NCBI GenBank assembly: GCA_902795765.1 | Contig: CADBMQ010000023.1 | Coordinates: 1-6,111, forward strand | Length of the DNA stretch: 6,111 nt | DNA from: Oscillospiraceae bacterium | GTDB lineage: Bacteria; Bacillota; Clostridia; Oscillospirales; Acutalibacteraceae | Reading direction: 5' to 3' | Shown: piece after piece, positions 1 through 5,865 of the stretch | How the letters are laid out: each line of letters opens with the position of its first letter | How positions within the stretch are numbered: position 1 is the stretch's first letter | Translations under genes and position numbers: made by a program | The notes under the pieces: generated by a model | Seen by the model: the letters and a program-made list of their open reading frames with translations, nothing else | Database searches by the model: none | What the model was told of the DNA's origin: nothing

Positions 1-222
1 GGTATGGATAAAGAAGAAATTGTACAAATTTCTCGTAAAATCGGCACTTTTGAAACATCTATTCAGCCGTATGAAGACTGCTGTACAGTATTCACTCCAA
101 AACATCCAAGAACTCGCCCTCGCCTTGAAATAGTTAGAGCAGAGGAACGATTTGAAAACTGCGATGAATTAGTTGAAAAAGCAATAAAAGAAACGACTTT
201 TGAAAAGATTTTCTGGGAATAA
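1..222 (+). CDS. thiI: ThiI, tRNA uracil 4-sulfurtransferase, C-terminal fragment (5' end outside window)
   Basis: The reading frame is open from base 1 and ends at TAA 220-222, giving the last 73 residues of a protein that begins upstream. The Met codon at base 4 is internal, not a start. The stretch reads GMDKEEI, then a KIGTF motif, then PYEDCCTVF followed by PKHP, which is the characteristic end of the ThiI PP-loop (adenylating) domain. ThiI transfers sulfur to uridine 8 of tRNA to form 4-thiouridine, and in some bacteria also supplies sulfur for thiamine thiazole. The protein stops about 40 residues after the PKHP motif, so it lacks the C-terminal rhodanese domain of E. coli ThiI, as is usual in Firmicutes, where a dedicated cysteine desulfurase delivers the sulfur. 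The next gene begins 3 bases after the stop, so the two are probably co-transcribed and translationally coupled. Confidence 0.9.
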   Translation, partial: GMDKEEIVQISRKIGTFETSIQPYEDCCTVFTPKHPRTRPRLEIVRAEERFENCDELVEKAIKETTFEKIFWE

Positions 223-225
223 AAA

Positions 226-738
226 ATGAGTATTGCAGAAAAAATTGTTCATGAACTTATAACTCAAAAACTTACAATTTCAACTGCCGAATCATGCACA
301 GGTGGACTTATCGGTGCTAGTATTACTGATATTTCAGGAGCATCTGCAGTTTACAATATGGGGTTTATTACCTATTCAAACGACGCAAAAGCAGAATTGC
401 TTGGTGTTGACGCTAATATAATAAAAAAATATGGTGCAGTATCTTGGCAAACAGCAGAACAAATGGCTAATGGTGCAAGACTACATGCTAAATCCGATAT
501 TTCTGTTGCTGTAACGGGAATAGCAGGTCCTAAAAGTGATGATACAAACAAGCCTGTCGGTCTTGTCTTTATCGGACTTTGTTGCGAAAAAGGCTGTTTC
601 GTTGTTGAAAATCACTTTGGTGAAGACAAAACAAGAGAGAAAATTCGCAACCTTACAAAAGAAAAAGCGCTCGAACTTGTATACGAGTGTGTAACCGACT
701 ATGATTTATTTATTAAATCAAATAAATTTGCCAACTGA
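226..738 (+). CDS. pncC: PncC / CinA C-terminal-domain protein, nicotinamide-nucleotide amidohydrolase
   Basis: This 170-residue protein consists only of the CinA C-terminal domain, which hydrolyses nicotinamide mononucleotide to nicotinate mononucleotide and ammonia in pyridine nucleotide salvage. Family motifs are in order: TAESCTGG (residues 20-27, with the conserved Ser at 23), a GFITYSN segment (46-52), GAVS (70-73), and TGIAGP followed by KPVG (97-112). The length fits stand-alone PncC; the N-terminal CinA (COG1058-type) domain found in about 410-residue CinA proteins is absent, and no room upstream exists for it because thiI ends 3 bases before the start. The ATG at 226 is the only sensible start, since the motif-bearing region begins within 20 residues of it. 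The Shine-Dalgarno is weak (GGGAA at 215-219, inside the thiI end), which suits translation by coupling to thiI. A role in cytosolic NAD salvage is inferred from the family. Confidence 0.92.
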   Translation: MSIAEKIVHELITQKLTISTAESCTGGLIGASITDISGASAVYNMGFITYSNDAKAELLGVDANIIKKYGAVSWQTAEQMANGARLHAKSDISVAVTGIAGPKSDDTNKPVGLVFIGLCCEKGCFVVENHFGEDKTREKIRNLTKEKALELVYECVTDYDLFIKSNKFAN

Positions 739-758
739 AAAGAAACGGAGGTATCATT

Positions 759-2060
759 ATGGATAACAAGGAAAATTATAATGAATTATATGATAGTATA
801 ATAAAAAACATAAGTGAGTTACCTGATATTTCCGAACTTGACAAAAAGATAGTTGACGAGAAAAAGCCGAATTTATTTATCCGATTTCTTAAGTATTTTA
901 TTCCTTGGAAAGGCGATAAAGTAACGGAAGTAATTCGTAAAATTGTGTTTCTAACTGCACTTACTGTTTTTATTTCAATGATAGTCGTTTTGCTTCCGTA
1001 TTTTCTTGAACCTATTCAAAACAATAATTTGAACAATCGTTTAAGAGATATGTATGGTGATAGTGAAAATCTTTATTCTTCGCCAATACGAAATCCAAGA
1101 TTTGACAAGTTATATGCCGAAAACAAAGATATAGTTGGTTGGATTAAGATTGATGGAACAAATATCGACTATCCTGTTGTGCAAACACAAGAACAAATAG
1201 ACAACGATGATTATTATTTAAGACGTGATTTTTATAAGGAATATAGCAGTTATGGTACTGTTTTTGCTGAAAAAACAAACAGCTTAAACTATATGCAGGA
1301 AAGCAAAAATATTACGTTATACGGTCATAATATGAAAGATGACAGTTCGATGTTTAGCCAACTTGTTCACTATTCTGAACTTAATTTTTATAAGCAACAT
1401 CCGACTTTCCGTTTTGATACTTTGTATCGTGATGGATATTGGAAAGTTGTTGCAGTTATGATAACTAATACCTATGCATATCAAAACAACAACTATGTTT
1501 TTGACTATCGCAAAACAAACTTTACGTCTGATGAACAGTTTTTATATTGGATAAATGAATGTAAAAAACGTTCAATTATCAATACAGGCGTTCAAGTTGA
1601 CAAATCTGATGAAATTTTGACTTTGCAAACTTGCACATACGAGTTTAGAGACGCTCGTTTTGTTGTTATTGCGAGACGTGTTAGAACAGGGGAGAGCAAA
1701 TCTGTTAATACGGCTGCCGCTGTTGTTAACAAAGATCCTGTTTATCCACAAGTTTGGTATGATGTCAACGGACTTGACAATCCTCATAAAAATGACAAGC
1801 CACAGGATATGAGTATTCCTGACACAACCAAAACTGCCAATACAACCGCTCCTGTCACAAAAGCAACGTACGCTAAAACAACACAAAATAACAAAACAAC
1901 TCCAAAAACAACAAGTGGAGGAGGCATTATAACCAAAGCTCCAACGGCAGCGCCTACTCAACCACCTACTCAACCTCCCACAAATCCTCCAACGACGGCT
2001 CCCACTCAACCACCAACTCAGCCACCAACAGTTGTTACAACCCAACAAGCAACTGAGTGA
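759..2060 (+). CDS. srtB: Class B sortase with N-terminal membrane anchor and C-terminal Thr/Pro-rich tail
   Basis: This 433-residue cell-surface transpeptidase should cleave sorting motifs in secreted proteins and attach them to peptidoglycan or pilin partners. Residues 1-60 are polar and probably cytoplasmic. One hydrophobic segment spans about 62-83, giving a type II topology with the catalytic domain outside. The class B sortase domain covers about 112-308: DIVGWIKIDGT (124-134), DYPVVQ (137-142), YYLRRDF (152-158), YGHNM with catalytic His190, TLQTCTYEF with catalytic Cys292, and ARFVV with catalytic Arg300. The His-Cys-Arg triad is therefore intact. Typical class B sortases end near the Arg strand; here about 125 more residues follow, rich in Thr, Pro, Gln and Asn, ending in proline-rich repeats. 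GGAGG at 747-751 lies 7 bases before the ATG. Substrates are not in the window, so it may be a housekeeping sortase. The catalytic call is firm; the tail's role is unknown. Confidence 0.93.
   Translation: MDNKENYNELYDSIIKNISELPDISELDKKIVDEKKPNLFIRFLKYFIPWKGDKVTEVIRKIVFLTALTVFISMIVVLLPYFLEPIQNNNLNNRLRDMYGDSENLYSSPIRNPRFDKLYAENKDIVGWIKIDGTNIDYPVVQTQEQIDNDDYYLRRDFYKEYSSYGTVFAEKTNSLNYMQESKNITLYGHNMKDDSSMFSQLVHYSELNFYKQHPTFRFDTLYRDGYWKVVAVMITNTYAYQNNNYVFDYRKTNFTSDEQFLYWINECKKRSIINTGVQVDKSDEILTLQTCTYEFRDARFVVIARRVRTGESKSVNTAAAVVNKDPVYPQVWYDVNGLDNPHKNDKPQDMSIPDTTKTANTTAPVTKATYAKTTQNNKTTPKTTSGGGIITKAPTAAPTQPPTQPPTNPPTTAPTQPPTQPPTVVTTQQATE
1950..2030 (+). repeat. Coding Pro/Thr repeat in the sortase tail
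   Basis: Two identical 11-residue copies of APTQPPTQPPT (sortase residues 398-408 and 414-424; bases 1950-1982 and 1998-2030) are separated by NPPTT. Within each copy TQPP is itself repeated. Six of the 11 codons differ synonymously between the copies, so the peptide is conserved although the DNA has drifted. The segment should be an extended, disordered, wall-exposed stalk and a plausible O-glycosylation substrate (inference). Confidence 0.85.
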
Positions 2061-2069
2061 TATTACAGT

Positions 2070-2107
2070 ATAACAGAAGTTCGAAATTTAGAACTTCTGT
2101 TATTTTT
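2070..2107 (+). terminator. Intrinsic terminator of the thiI-pncC-srtB operon
   Basis: A perfect 13-bp stem pairs 2070-2082 with 2091-2103 around an 8-base loop (2083-2090), followed by a T run at 2103-2107. It starts 9 bases after the sortase stop. The T run is short and then broken by A, but the stem is long and uninterrupted. The gap between the sortase and the ligase holds only this hairpin and the next promoter. Confidence 0.9.
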
Positions 2108-2115
2108 ATGCTTTA

Positions 2116-2144
2116 TTGACAAAAATAATATATGATGATAGAAT
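2116..2144 (+). promoter_or_regulatory. Sigma-A-type promoter for the two-domain ligase gene
   Basis: TTGACA (2116-2121) is a perfect -35 box. A 17-base spacer follows, then TAGAAT (2139-2144), one base off the TATAAT consensus. TG at 2136-2137 one base before the -10 box makes it an extended -10 element. Transcription should start near 2151, leaving a leader of about 19 bases with no room for a riboswitch. The combination predicts strong, possibly constitutive expression unless a repressor acts; no clear operator was seen. Confidence 0.8.
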
Positions 2145-2153
2145 AAAAATCGA

Positions 2154-2164
2154 AAAGAGATGAT
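2154..2164 (+). promoter_or_regulatory. Ribosome binding site deciding the ligase start
   Basis: The stretch AAAGAGATGAT matches most of the extended anti-Shine-Dalgarno complement (GAG core at 2157-2159, then TGAT). The core lies about 9 bases before ATG 2170 but only about 3 before the in-frame TTG at 2164. ATG 2170 is therefore preferred over the TTG, which would add two residues. Confidence 0.6.
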
Positions 2165-2169
2165 TGATA

Positions 2170-4689
2170 ATGATAAACATAAATAAAATTTGTGACTATA
2201 TTCGTTCAGGCGAAACAAAAAAACAACGTCTTGGGCTTGAATTAGAACACTTTGTTTGCGATGATAAATTTAATGTTGCACCATACTCTTTGATGTGCGA
2301 TTTTTTTGTGTTCTTGAGTAGTAAAGAGTTAGGTGAATTGTATTATGAAGAAGGGAATATTCTTGGAATAAAATGCAATGAATACGATTTAACTCTTGAA
2401 CCTGCTGGTCAACTTGAAATTAGCGTTTGCCCTCAAAGTGAGATTGCTGAAATAGAAAGAATATATAAGGATTTTTGCAATATATTCGAGTGCTTTTTCA
2501 ACGAAAAGGGATATAAGCTTATTCGGAAAGGCGTTCATCCATTAGTCGAAAAATCATCTAAATCGCCGTTTGAATTCGATTTAATTCCTAAAACGAGATA
2601 CAAGTATATGGACGAGTATTTTAAAAGTAGTGGCAAATTTGGTGCGTATATGATGCGTGCAACAGCATCTGCACAAATTTCAGTTGATTTTGAATCGGAA
2701 AATGATGCAATGCGTAAACTTTCAATTTTGCAAAAAATCAGTCCATTTTTGTCGTTAATAACTGAAAACCGTTCCTTTGTTGATCATATTAAACCATTTG
2801 AAAATCATCTACTTCGTACGCAAATTTGGAATGATTTAGATGCAGATCGGTGTGGCTATCTGCCTAATTCGCTCAACTGCAATTATAAATATAAAGACTA
2901 TGCAGAATATATTTATAATAAACCACTAATCTGTACCAAAGATGACAAAAAAGTAATTTCGCTTGGAAATAAGACTGCAAATGAATATTTCAAAGGAAAA
3001 GAATTGAACGATGTGGATTATATTATTTCTATGTTCTTTCCCAATATTCGATTAAAAAAATTCCTTGAAATAAGAGTCGCTGACAGTATGGAATTACCAC
3101 AATTTCTCGGATATTGTGCGTTGATAAAAGGTCTTGTTTATTCAAAGCAGTCGATTGATAAAATAAGTGAAACTTTTGACTGGATATGCGGTATTGACAC
3201 ACTTTATAAAATAGAAAAATCGTTGTCAAAACAGGGTTTATCTGCTGAAATCAATGGCAAGTCTGCAACTTACTACATTGAACAGTTGTTCGCTATTGCA
3301 GAATCTGCATTAAGTGAGCAAGATAAATGTTATTTAGCGAAACTAAAACCATTGTTCTTGCTTGAAAAAGAGTATTTTTCGATTGTATCTGAAGATGAAA
3401 ATCATCGTCAATCTGCAATAGATATTCTTGATTACCTTGAACAATCAACTGCAAAATATCACAACAGAACAGTTAGAACGCTTTATATGCCGAAAATTTT
3501 TACAAATAAAGAAATTGATTTATTTGCGAATTTTATAAATGTTCTCTATGATATTTTTGATAAGGTCATTAACGAATATGAAAGAAATGCTGAATACAGA
3601 AAATTGTTCGATTTTCCGAAGGTTGTCGAGGATTTAATTCTTCGTGAACGTTCGTATTCGTGCAATATTCCCATTTCAAGAGTTGATATATTCTATAACG
3701 AGCTTAACTCCGATTTCAAATTTTGCGAATTTAATACAGACGGTAGTAGTGCTATGAATGAGGACAGGGAACTTAATATTGCAATAAAACTCTCAAAAGC
3801 ATATAATCTGTTCTCGAAAAAACACAATATGAAATCTTTTGAACTATTTGACAGTTGGATTGACGAACTGCTCGAAATGTATAGAGAGTATGCAAATAAG
3901 TATAACAAAAACGAAAAACCTAACATCGCAATTGTTGACTTTATGGAACATTCAACCGAAAATGAGTTTATTATTTTTGCTGACAGAATGAGAAATCGTG
4001 GACTCAACGCAACAGTTTGTGATATTCGTTCGCTTGAATATAAAAACGGAAAGTTGTATCACGAAAACACTCAAATTGATCTTATATATCGTAGAGCAGT
4101 AACATCTGATATAATCGAAAATCTCGATTCAGTTAGTGATTTTCTCTCTGCAACAGCGGATAACTCAGTTTGTGTTGTTGGTGATATTAGAACACAAATT
4201 GTGCATAACAAGTCGCTTTTCCGTGTTCTTCATCTTCCACAAACGCAAAAATTACTTTCTGAATTTGAATGTGAATATATCAAAAATCATGTTCCATATA
4301 CGGTATCTCTTGAAAAGGAAAATTTGAATAATAACATTCTCCAAAGTGTTATGAACGATAAAGACAAATGGATTATAAAACCAATAGACTCTTATGGTTC
4401 TCTTGGTGTTCACGCAGGTGTCGAAAGTGATTTAGATACATGGCGAAAATATGTCGAGGATTGCTTTGATAAAAGCTATATTTTGCAGGAATTCTGCAAT
4501 CCTTATGTACTAAAAAATGTTCGTTTTACAAGAGAATCAGAGTCAGCAGAAATTGTTGATACTTGTAATTTAACAGGATTGTTCGTATATAATGGAAAAT
4601 TCAGTGGTATATACTCCCGTGTATCATTGTCTGAGATTATTTCAACGCAATATAGTGAAATTTCTTTACCAACAATAATTGTTGACTAA
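2170..4689 (+). CDS. Two-domain ligase: glutamate-cysteine-ligase-like (GCS2) half fused to a circularly permuted ATP-grasp half; predicted gamma-glutamyl peptide / glutathione-type synthetase
   Basis: The 839-residue protein (from ATG 2170) has two ligase-like halves. The N-terminal half, about 1-385, resembles the GCS2 family of plant and alphaproteobacterial glutamate-cysteine ligases: GLELEHF (22-28), a TLEPAGQLEIS substrate-site stretch (75-85), MMRATASAQISVDF (161-174), and LEIRVADSMELPQ (299-311). This family joins glutamate to an amine, normally cysteine, using ATP. After a helical linker, the C-terminal half (about 430-830) resembles the glutathionylspermidine-synthase/circularly permuted ATP-grasp superfamily: RVDIFY (504-509), KFCEFNTDGSSAMNE (517-531), IDLIYRRAVTSD (636-647), WIIKPIDSYGSLGV with likely ATP-binding Lys737 and a glycine loop (734-747), YILQEF (770-775), and GKFSGIYSRVS (809-819). 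No signal peptide or membrane segment is visible, so it should be cytosolic. It is transcribed alone from its own promoter. A two-step synthesis (gamma-Glu-Cys, then addition of Gly or another amine) is inferred; the second substrate cannot be read from sequence. Confidence 0.75.
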   Translation: MININKICDYIRSGETKKQRLGLELEHFVCDDKFNVAPYSLMCDFFVFLSSKELGELYYEEGNILGIKCNEYDLTLEPAGQLEISVCPQSEIAEIERIYKDFCNIFECFFNEKGYKLIRKGVHPLVEKSSKSPFEFDLIPKTRYKYMDEYFKSSGKFGAYMMRATASAQISVDFESENDAMRKLSILQKISPFLSLITENRSFVDHIKPFENHLLRTQIWNDLDADRCGYLPNSLNCNYKYKDYAEYIYNKPLICTKDDKKVISLGNKTANEYFKGKELNDVDYIISMFFPNIRLKKFLEIRVADSMELPQFLGYCALIKGLVYSKQSIDKISETFDWICGIDTLYKIEKSLSKQGLSAEINGKSATYYIEQLFAIAESALSEQDKCYLAKLKPLFLLEKEYFSIVSEDENHRQSAIDILDYLEQSTAKYHNRTVRTLYMPKIFTNKEIDLFANFINVLYDIFDKVINEYERNAEYRKLFDFPKVVEDLILRERSYSCNIPISRVDIFYNELNSDFKFCEFNTDGSSAMNEDRELNIAIKLSKAYNLFSKKHNMKSFELFDSWIDELLEMYREYANKYNKNEKPNIAIVDFMEHSTENEFIIFADRMRNRGLNATVCDIRSLEYKNGKLYHENTQIDLIYRRAVTSDIIENLDSVSDFLSATADNSVCVVGDIRTQIVHNKSLFRVLHLPQTQKLLSEFECEYIKNHVPYTVSLEKENLNNNILQSVMNDKDKWIIKPIDSYGSLGVHAGVESDLDTWRKYVEDCFDKSYILQEFCNPYVLKNVRFTRESESAEIVDTCNLTGLFVYNGKFSGIYSRVSLSEIISTQYSEISLPTIIVD

Positions 4690-4704
4690 ATTTGTAAAAA
4701 TATG

Positions 4705-4733
4705 TTGACAAATCAAATGTAATATATTAAAAT
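4705..4733 (+). promoter_or_regulatory. Sigma-A-type promoter for the riboswitch-dapA-lysA unit
   Basis: TTGACA (4705-4710), a 17-base spacer and TAAAAT (4728-4733) form a near-consensus promoter beginning 16 bases after the ligase stop. The predicted transcription start, about 4740, falls just at the 5' edge of the lysine aptamer, which is where a riboswitch promoter should place it. No terminator is seen between the ligase stop and this promoter. Confidence 0.82.
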
Positions 4734-4737
4734 ATTA

Positions 4738-4897
4738 GAAGATAGAGGTGCATTATATCATCAGTAGTCGTTCTTTTATGCTTGCCAAAAGTAGAGTGAC
4801 GAAAGGGATAAGTGCCGAAGACGGCGTTTGGCAATCGTCGATCTGACACACGAAAATAATATTTTGTGTGTTGTCGCAGTAATGCGGAGGGCTATCA
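4738..4897 (+). promoter_or_regulatory. Lysine riboswitch (L box) aptamer
   Basis: The leader of dapA carries the conserved L-box blocks GATAGAGGTGC (4741-4751), AGTA (4763-4766), GAAAGGG (4801-4807), GCCGAAG (4814-4820) and GGAGGGCTATC (4886-4896). All five helices can be drawn. P1 pairs 4741-4745 with 4892-4896. P2 pairs 4767-4770 with 4797-4800, and further out 4773-4777 with 4787-4791. P3 pairs 4820-4823 with 4836-4839. P4 pairs 4846-4855 with 4862-4871. P5 pairs 4875-4878 with 4883-4886, capped by a GTAA tetraloop. The P2 loop TTGCC (4782-4786) is complementary to GGCAA in the P3 loop (4830-4834), matching the kissing-loop contact known in this class. The gene downstream is dapA and then lysA, both in lysine synthesis, which agrees with lysine as ligand. 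Binding should repress the operon by transcription termination. Confidence 0.95.
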
Positions 4898-4933
4898 TTT
4901 TTAAGCGTTATTATGCTTTTTTTATGACAGCCT
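4889..4933 (+). promoter_or_regulatory. Antiterminator of the lysine riboswitch expression platform
   Basis: GGCTATCAT (4890-4898), which contains the 3' strand of P1, can pair with ATGACAGCC (4924-4932), the 5' arm of the terminator, with a single A-C mismatch and an added G-T pair outside (4889 with 4933). The two pairings exclude each other. Without lysine the antiterminator forms and dapA is transcribed; with lysine P1 holds 4892-4896 and the terminator forms. The enclosed loop contains a small 6-bp hairpin (4903-4908 with 4913-4918) followed by seven T at 4917-4923, which may stack on the antiterminator, aid pausing or act as a weak first terminator. This is inferred from base pairing alone. 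Confidence 0.75.
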
Positions 4934-4952
4934 ATTGTGCTGTCATTTTTTT
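4924..4952 (+). terminator. Intrinsic terminator of the lysine riboswitch (regulated attenuator)
   Basis: A perfect 8-bp stem, ATGACAGC (4924-4931) with GCTGTCAT (4939-4946), closes a 7-base loop and runs into seven T residues (4946-4952). It lies 19 bases before the dapA start. Its 5' arm is the part captured by the antiterminator. The dapA Shine-Dalgarno (AAAAGGGG, 4957-4964, 7 bases before ATG) lies outside the hairpin, so control is by transcription rather than by hiding the ribosome site. Confidence 0.9.
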
Positions 4953-4971
4953 ATGAAAAAGGGGTATAAAA

Positions 4972-5865
4972 ATGAAAAATACTATTTTTACAGGTGCAGC
5001 AACAGCAATTATTACACCAATGAATGCTGACAAAAGTGTTGACTATGAATCATACGGTAAACTTATTGATTGGCAGATAGAACAGGGAATTGATGCCATT
5101 GTTGCCGCAGGTACAACAGGCGAAGGTTCAACCTTAAATGATGCTGAACATAAAGAAGTGATTAAATTTACAGTTGACCGTGTTAATGGAAGAGTTCCGG
5201 TTATTGCCGGCACAGGTTCGAATGATATTGCGTATTCAATCGAACTCACCAAATACGCTTGTGAGGTTGGCGCAGATGCAATGCTTATTGTTACACCATA
5301 CTATAATAAAGCAACACAAGCAGGTCTTATTGAATCTTTTACCGCAATTGCCGATGTTAGCACTAAACCGATTATTTTATACAATGTTCCGTCAAGAACA
5401 GGTTGTAATATAACTCCGGAAACTTGTGCAAAACTTTGCAAACATCCCAATATTGTTGCTATTAAAGAAGCCAGCGGCAATATATCTCAAGTTGCTGAAA
5501 TTGCTGCTTTAACAAACGGCGAACTCGATATTTATTCAGGTAATGATGACCAAATTGTTCCTGTATTATCTCTTGGTGGTAAAGGTGTTATTTCGGTTTT
5601 GTCTAACCTTTTGCCAAAAGAAACATCAAAAATCTGTCACGATTATCTTGACGGCAATGTTGCAGATGCAACTGCGAAGCAACTTGAATATCTTCAACTT
5701 ATCAATTCGCTTTTCTGCGAAGTAAATCCAATTCCTGTGAAAGCAGCAATGGCAAATATGGGTATGTGTGAAAACACTTTAAGATTGCCGTTGACTCCTA
5801 TGGAAAAGGCTCACGAAGAAAATATGGTTTCATTGATGAAAAAAGCAGGTATTGAAATTAAATAA
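4972..5865 (+). CDS. dapA: DapA, 4-hydroxy-tetrahydrodipicolinate synthase
   Basis: This 297-residue cytosolic aldolase condenses pyruvate with aspartate semialdehyde, the first committed step to diaminopimelate and lysine. It is collinear with the E. coli enzyme with an offset of +4. The Schiff-base Lys is K165 in VAIKEASGN, the catalytic triad is T48 (GTTGEG), Y111 (TPYYN) and Y137 (YNVPSRTG), and R142 binds the substrate carboxylate. Length is normal for the family and the C-terminal NPIPVKAAM helix segment is present. The ATG at 4972 has a good ribosome site (AAAAGGGG, 7-base spacing). Positions that bind the feedback inhibitor lysine in E. coli are partly changed: S48 is G52, A49 is S53, H53 is D57 and E84 is Y88, while H60, N84 and Y110 are kept. 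Lysine sensitivity of the enzyme may therefore be weak. It leads an operon with lysA under the lysine riboswitch. Confidence 0.96.
   Translation: MKNTIFTGAATAIITPMNADKSVDYESYGKLIDWQIEQGIDAIVAAGTTGEGSTLNDAEHKEVIKFTVDRVNGRVPVIAGTGSNDIAYSIELTKYACEVGADAMLIVTPYYNKATQAGLIESFTAIADVSTKPIILYNVPSRTGCNITPETCAKLCKHPNIVAIKEASGNISQVAEIAALTNGELDIYSGNDDQIVPVLSLGGKGVISVLSNLLPKETSKICHDYLDGNVADATAKQLEYLQLINSLFCEVNPIPVKAAMANMGMCENTLRLPLTPMEKAHEENMVSLMKKAGIEIK

Follow-up and report, generated by a model that had tools for sequence, protein, structure and literature searches.

A plant-type glutamate-cysteine ligase fused to a circularly permuted ATP-grasp ligase: a candidate two-step route to glutathione built from parts other than those of GshF

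Gene and domain organisation

The stretch of DNA analysed here, referred to as the window, comprises all 6,111 nucleotides of contig CADBMQ010000023.1 in the assembly GCA_902795765.1 of an Oscillospiraceae bacterium. It carries a gene that joins a plant-type (GCS2) glutamate-cysteine ligase (GCL) to a circularly permuted ATP-grasp ligase in one chain. The gene is preceded by a class B sortase gene and followed by a lysine riboswitch with dapA, so that, as the initial annotation stated, no thiol gene stands beside it in the window. The gene and its N-terminal (N) and C-terminal (C) halves are located as follows:

2170..4689 (+): fusion gene, 839 amino acids, ATG at 2170, stop at 4687-4689, frame intact
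2164 (+): alternative TTG start, giving a fusion protein two residues longer
2170..3351 (+): N half, residues 1-394, plant-type (GCS2) glutamate-cysteine ligase
3352..4686 (+): C half, residues 395-839, circularly permuted ATP-grasp ligase

All four motifs quoted in the initial annotation are found in the translation of 2170-4689, and its assignment of the first half to GCS2 agrees with Pfam, where PF04107 is the sole match of the window protein, above its gathering score (E 2e-16, 60.6 bits, gathering cut-off 21). No Pfam family, PF03738 and PF14403 included, matches the C half of the window protein at E <= 1. Among 30 aligned relatives searched at E <= 0.1, GCS2 is matched in all 30, CP_ATPgrasp_2 in 16 and GSP_synth in eight. 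The fold in an AlphaFold2 model bears out the permuted ATP-grasp proposed for the second half. In NCBIfam at E <= 1, the window protein matches only TIGR01436 (plant GCL) and TIGR03444 (EgtA), each below cut-off, TIGR01436 with 149.3 bits against an equivalog cut-off of 463.15. The GshF equivalog models (NF002688 / TIGR01435) give no match in the same search, which accords with the earlier proposal that the protein is not GshF.

The protein has 119 relatives at 45-59% identity and 99-100% query coverage (120 matches listed of 170, the window's own included). Because these listed relatives are full length, the length of the fusion is not due to chance, and assembly error as its origin is ruled out.

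Fold and catalytic residues

The AlphaFold2 model of the fusion (predicted local distance difference test, pLDDT, 90.2; predicted template modelling score, pTM, 0.90) contains two ligase folds, the lack of which the initial annotation had named as refuting. In the protein, a plant-type GCL fold is followed by a circularly permuted ATP-grasp fold. The C half folded alone from one sequence reached a pLDDT of 34, and that model was discarded. In fold comparison the N half has about 21% identity to the plant-type GCL structure 2gwc, and the C half 13-15% identity to the eukaryotic glutathione synthetases 2hgs, 3kal and 5oes. The C half differs from the latter family in lacking a sequence match to it, in Pfam at E <= 1 as in a PDB profile search at E <= 10. 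Matches of the C half in the PDB sequence search are weak (Cp1B, E 0.005; trypanothione synthetase, E 0.06). The GshF entries 3ln6 and 3ln7 are matched in fold over the first half only (to 514), among the matches listed. A diverged GshF would have the same order of steps and a similar length; the absent GshF model match and the permuted ATP-grasp fold speak against this highly improbable origin.

Against the C-half profile, Escherichia coli GspS aligns with an hhalign E of 2.6e-5 (probability 75) and YgiC poorly, with an E of 0.011 (probability 4). The permuted ATP-grasp signature R-x-D / E-x-N / K / K is present in the C half, at these positions:

3679..3735 (+): R504, D506, E520 and N522, aligned by hhalign to GspS R316, D318, E330 and N332, each kept in 109/109 C halves
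4210..4212 (+): K681, aligned by hhalign to GspS K498, kept in 109/109 C halves
4378..4380 (+): K737 of a KP motif, matched to GspS K533 by motif only, outside the hhalign range, kept in 109/109 C halves

We take GspS R316 to be the catalytic mobile arginine, D318, E330 and N332 to be magnesium ligands, and K498 and K533 to be the ATP lysines. R817, presumably the counterpart of a GspS arginine, is kept in 108 of the 109 C halves. The N-half residues E24, E26, E77, E83, R216, E300 and R302 are kept in all 82 sequences compared. Neither half has thus lost the residues taken as catalytic (82 N and 109 C sequences).

Distribution of the two halves

The C-half family comprises 1762 matching proteins; among the 120 matches listed of these, none is fused to a PF04262 GCL. 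Beyond the window, N and C halves occur in other genomes as neighbouring genes or apart. Faecalicoccus pleomorphus DSM 20574 (L013) has the fused form, Gemmiger formicilis An812 (L065) the split form, and Roseburia sp. 1XD42-69 (L025) a C half with an unlinked PF04262 GCL. Scanning GTDB contigs gave 214 confirmed places, of which 80 loci were kept, with C halves in Lachnospiraceae, Roseburia, Gemmiger, Faecalibacterium, Faecalicoccus, Erysipelotrichaceae, Coriobacteriales, Haloplasmataceae, Oceanirhabdus and Bipolaricaulota. The C-half tree has 84 members, taken from all of these loci but L006, which a contig end truncates (79 of 80), and from five proteins. The C half is fused in 23 of these and adjoins a separate N-half gene in 35; the remaining 26 have none beside them within the available stretch, some of these loci sitting at contig ends. 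The window is placed among 13 fused proteins with a support of 97. The fused state requires eight changes on the tree, at least six of them forced by well-supported branches, and several fused rows are long-branched. In all 35 separate pairs, the distance from the end of the N gene to the start of the C gene, with starts chosen mechanically, is -236 to +72 bases.

Two further genes recur beside the halves. A gene of about 100 amino acids precedes the C half or the N-C pair in one cluster of six loci (L047, L056, L063, L067, L068 and L070); the L056 copy, the only one scanned, is ABM monooxygenase-like. A DJ-1/PfpI-like gene adjoins the N or C half in a cluster of seven loci (L011, L012, L013, L017, L020, L026 and L048), two of which were scanned by Pfam.

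GCL genes accompanying the second half

In a first set of genomes, those with the C half alone possess a PF04262 GCL in 22 of 25 cases, versus 2 of 50 with both halves (p 1e-13). A GCS2-type match elsewhere is present in 2 of the 25, one of them weak. The genomes with both halves represent 50 of 55 loci (L018, L046, L055, L061 and L079 left out); L061 is outside the GCL test, and the statistics on this set count 74 rows. Because this set had been chosen by similarity to the family, the count was repeated in an even draw of 250 genomes from the family to which G003 (Roseburia sp. 1XD42-69) belongs. Here a PF04262 GCL is found in 8/8 genomes with the C half alone, 3/23 with both halves, 0/6 with the N half alone and 10/213 with neither, 37 of the genomes being classed by hand from the query range, with stop codons in some matched stretches, where the profile overruns the frame. 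The difference between 8/8 and 10/213 has a Fisher p of 4e-10. Four of the 23 carriers of both halves (G363, G459, G473 and G496) have them on different contigs.

A GCL of either family accompanies the C half in 31/31 genomes of the 250-genome sample and in 73/75 of the first set, i.e. in 104 of 106 genome entries pooled, a few genomes being counted in both sets. Two of the PF04262 GCLs that stand in for the N half have the GCL part of GshF as their best NCBIfam match; the synthetase part is absent. The C half is tied to a GCL by co-occurrence, which leaves the acceptor unnamed. We rate this company as the best evidence for gamma-glutamylcysteine as the substrate of the C half.

Predicted reaction and alternatives

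On balance, we lean towards the view that the fusion carries out both steps of glutathione synthesis and does so with other components than GshF. The N half is predicted to join glutamate and cysteine to gamma-glutamylcysteine. The C half would take up this product, activate its cysteine carboxylate as an acyl phosphate and use glycine as the acceptor amine, glycine being the least certain step. Good support exists for the first step, predicted indirectly from the fold, the motifs and the exchange with PF04262 GCLs, and for the use of gamma-glutamylcysteine, predicted from the accompanying GCLs.

Several results weigh against glutathione synthesis. The fold of the C half is neutral as to the acceptor, since YgiC (a peptide-spermidine ligase), GspS and homoglutathione synthetase match it no less well than glutathione synthetases do. 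Stand-alone C halves, where the source gives a name, are called "glutathionylspermidine synthase family" or "circularly permuted type 2 ATP-grasp". Glutathione reductase (TIGR01421) is above cut-off in 0/250 genomes, so that this enzyme cannot separate carriers. Two of the 25 genomes with the C half alone (G017 and G023) possess neither GCL family. Corrected for relatedness, the GCL association is reduced to five independent contrasts, two or three in the expected direction and almost never the reverse, and fewer than six contrasts cannot reach 0.05 in a sign test. Another synthetase may be present in genomes with a match above cut-off to PF02955, which models the ATP-grasp part of a conventional glutathione synthetase: in a scan of 50 genomes, including 22 of the 25 with the C half alone, 10/50 pass, among them 6/22 of the latter, with at most 51 bits and in frames of 255-309 amino acids. 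These matches are probably other ATP-grasps, because the model also passes or gives a signal in several control genomes, Bacillus subtilis included. GCLs of both families, finally, also have another role, because a GATase_4 gene often adjoins them, even without a C half.

Some of these observations bear on a less probable reading, in which the C half still uses gamma-glutamylcysteine but takes another amine in place of glycine (a polyamine, beta-alanine or a different amino acid) and yields an undescribed low-molecular-weight thiol. Besides the acceptor-neutral fold and the lack of glutathione reductase in the sample, it draws on GspS being the only clear profile match of the C half. However, a GCL accompanies the C half, yet no recurrent polyamine gene is seen among that part of the neighbours that was annotated, and GspS E391, which we assume to be a residue of the polyamine site, is not kept, the aligned window residue being N598. 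Put more broadly and held with the same reserve, the second half could be a widespread unrecognised ligase that turns gamma-glutamylcysteine from whichever GCL is present into a thiol other than glutathione, giving a broad range of Clostridia, Erysipelotrichaceae and Coriobacteria their own small thiol.

The amidotransferase genes raise a further alternative. GATase_4 (class-II amidotransferase, EgtC/Dug3-like; five scanned by Pfam) stands beside either GCL family, often without a C half, in L084, L085, L089, L090, L107, L109, L115, L116, L118-L120, L122, L124-L128, L131 and L132. It adjoins the GCL in 7/10 PF04262 loci with neither half, 4/6 loci with the N half only and 4/8 loci of genomes with the C half only. 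In L131 (G301), positions 10-5023 (+), the N half, the C half, a PF04262 GCL and GATase_4 follow in a row on one strand. The gamma-glutamyl group might accordingly be a temporary handle: the C half would extend gamma-Glu-Cys and GATase_4 would remove the glutamate to leave Cys-X, as in ergothioneine synthesis. These loci speak for such a route, but no GATase_4 occurs in the stretches available for the window and for the 80 loci with C halves, some of them short, and we consider the route improbable. GCL and amidotransferase form a separate module.

Other arrangements of GCL genes occur as well. The 880-amino-acid frame L116:1736-4378 (-) combines a PF04262 GCL with a GCS2-like domain and thus has two GCL-type domains per chain. 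GCS2-like genes also lie near PF04262 GCLs as separate frames in L115, L119 and L120 and, in genomes with the C half only, in L083/L085, L089 and L090.

Surroundings of the gene and host genome

The fusion gene is flanked by the following features:

226-738 (+): stand-alone CinA C-terminal domain, 170 amino acids, between thiI and srtB
759-2060 (+): class B sortase with a long threonine- and proline-rich tail, TIGR03064 above cut-off
2070..2103 (+): terminator-like hairpin behind the sortase gene, 13 pairs with a T tail, one found versus 0.2 expected in shuffles
2116..2144 (+): promoter-like site TTGACA-17-TAGAAT, 11/12 consensus letters
4735-4902 (+): lysine riboswitch (RF00168, 87 bits), preceding dapA and the beginning of another gene

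The strong promoter of the initial annotation stands as a consensus match at 2116-2144, but such a match says nothing of activity; promoter-like sites of at least nine letters number three in the window versus 1.7 expected.

The window makes up one 6.1 kb contig in genome G000 (1.44 Mb in 268 contigs, 86.8% complete, 2.1% contaminated). Only 3/197 genomes of the host's order match, and both halves are found only in G000; the gene is absent from two congeners and the remainder of 40 relatives. The congeners possess thiI - cinA - srtB without the fusion gene, with a full CinA of 431 amino acids at the same place. Horizontal gain by G000 would fit the lack of the gene in the relatives. G000 has a second dapA elsewhere, in the order asd - dapA - dapB as in a congener, and third-position G+C is uniform in the six window genes tested, at 0.22-0.32, versus 0.36-0.41 in three genes of G000:C100. 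Horizontal gain is not upheld because this second, native-order dapA and the composition make misbinning as likely, and the contig may be misbinned. No further cinA is found in G000, which does not decide the host question. The nature of the fusion protein is independent of it.

Comparison with known systems and implications

The fusion resembles GshF (GshAB) in having a GCL followed by an ATP-grasp in one chain, with the same predicted two-step reaction. GshF, as we understand it, combines a PF04262-type GCL with an ATP-grasp of another type, whereas the window fusion consists of a GCS2-type GCL and a circularly permuted ATP-grasp. With plant-type GCLs (PF04107, TIGR01436, 2gwc) the N half shares fold and conserved motifs, but it is fused to a second ligase, has low identity and lies below the equivalog cut-off. 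Unlike glutathionylspermidine synthetase, trypanothione synthetase and YgiC/YjfC, the C half lacks an amidase domain and is GCL-associated. Cp1B of E-64 biosynthesis (9cjn) is fungal and joins epoxysuccinate to an amino acid; it differs in that the portion of its report drawn on here describes no GCL partner (PMC12568646). No title or abstract opening describing such a fusion was found in searches of an open-access library, subscription papers being outside the search.

If the predicted steps are true, the fusion is a separate evolutionary answer to GshF, and at least two separate fusions, drawing on different protein families, would have put the two-enzyme glutathione pathway on a single chain. 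The C half, with its 1762 matching proteins, is so far named only at the level of its fold. Many anaerobes would then make a gamma-glutamyl thiol with which annotation does not credit them, and the identity of the thiol in these bacteria is directly testable in cultured carriers.
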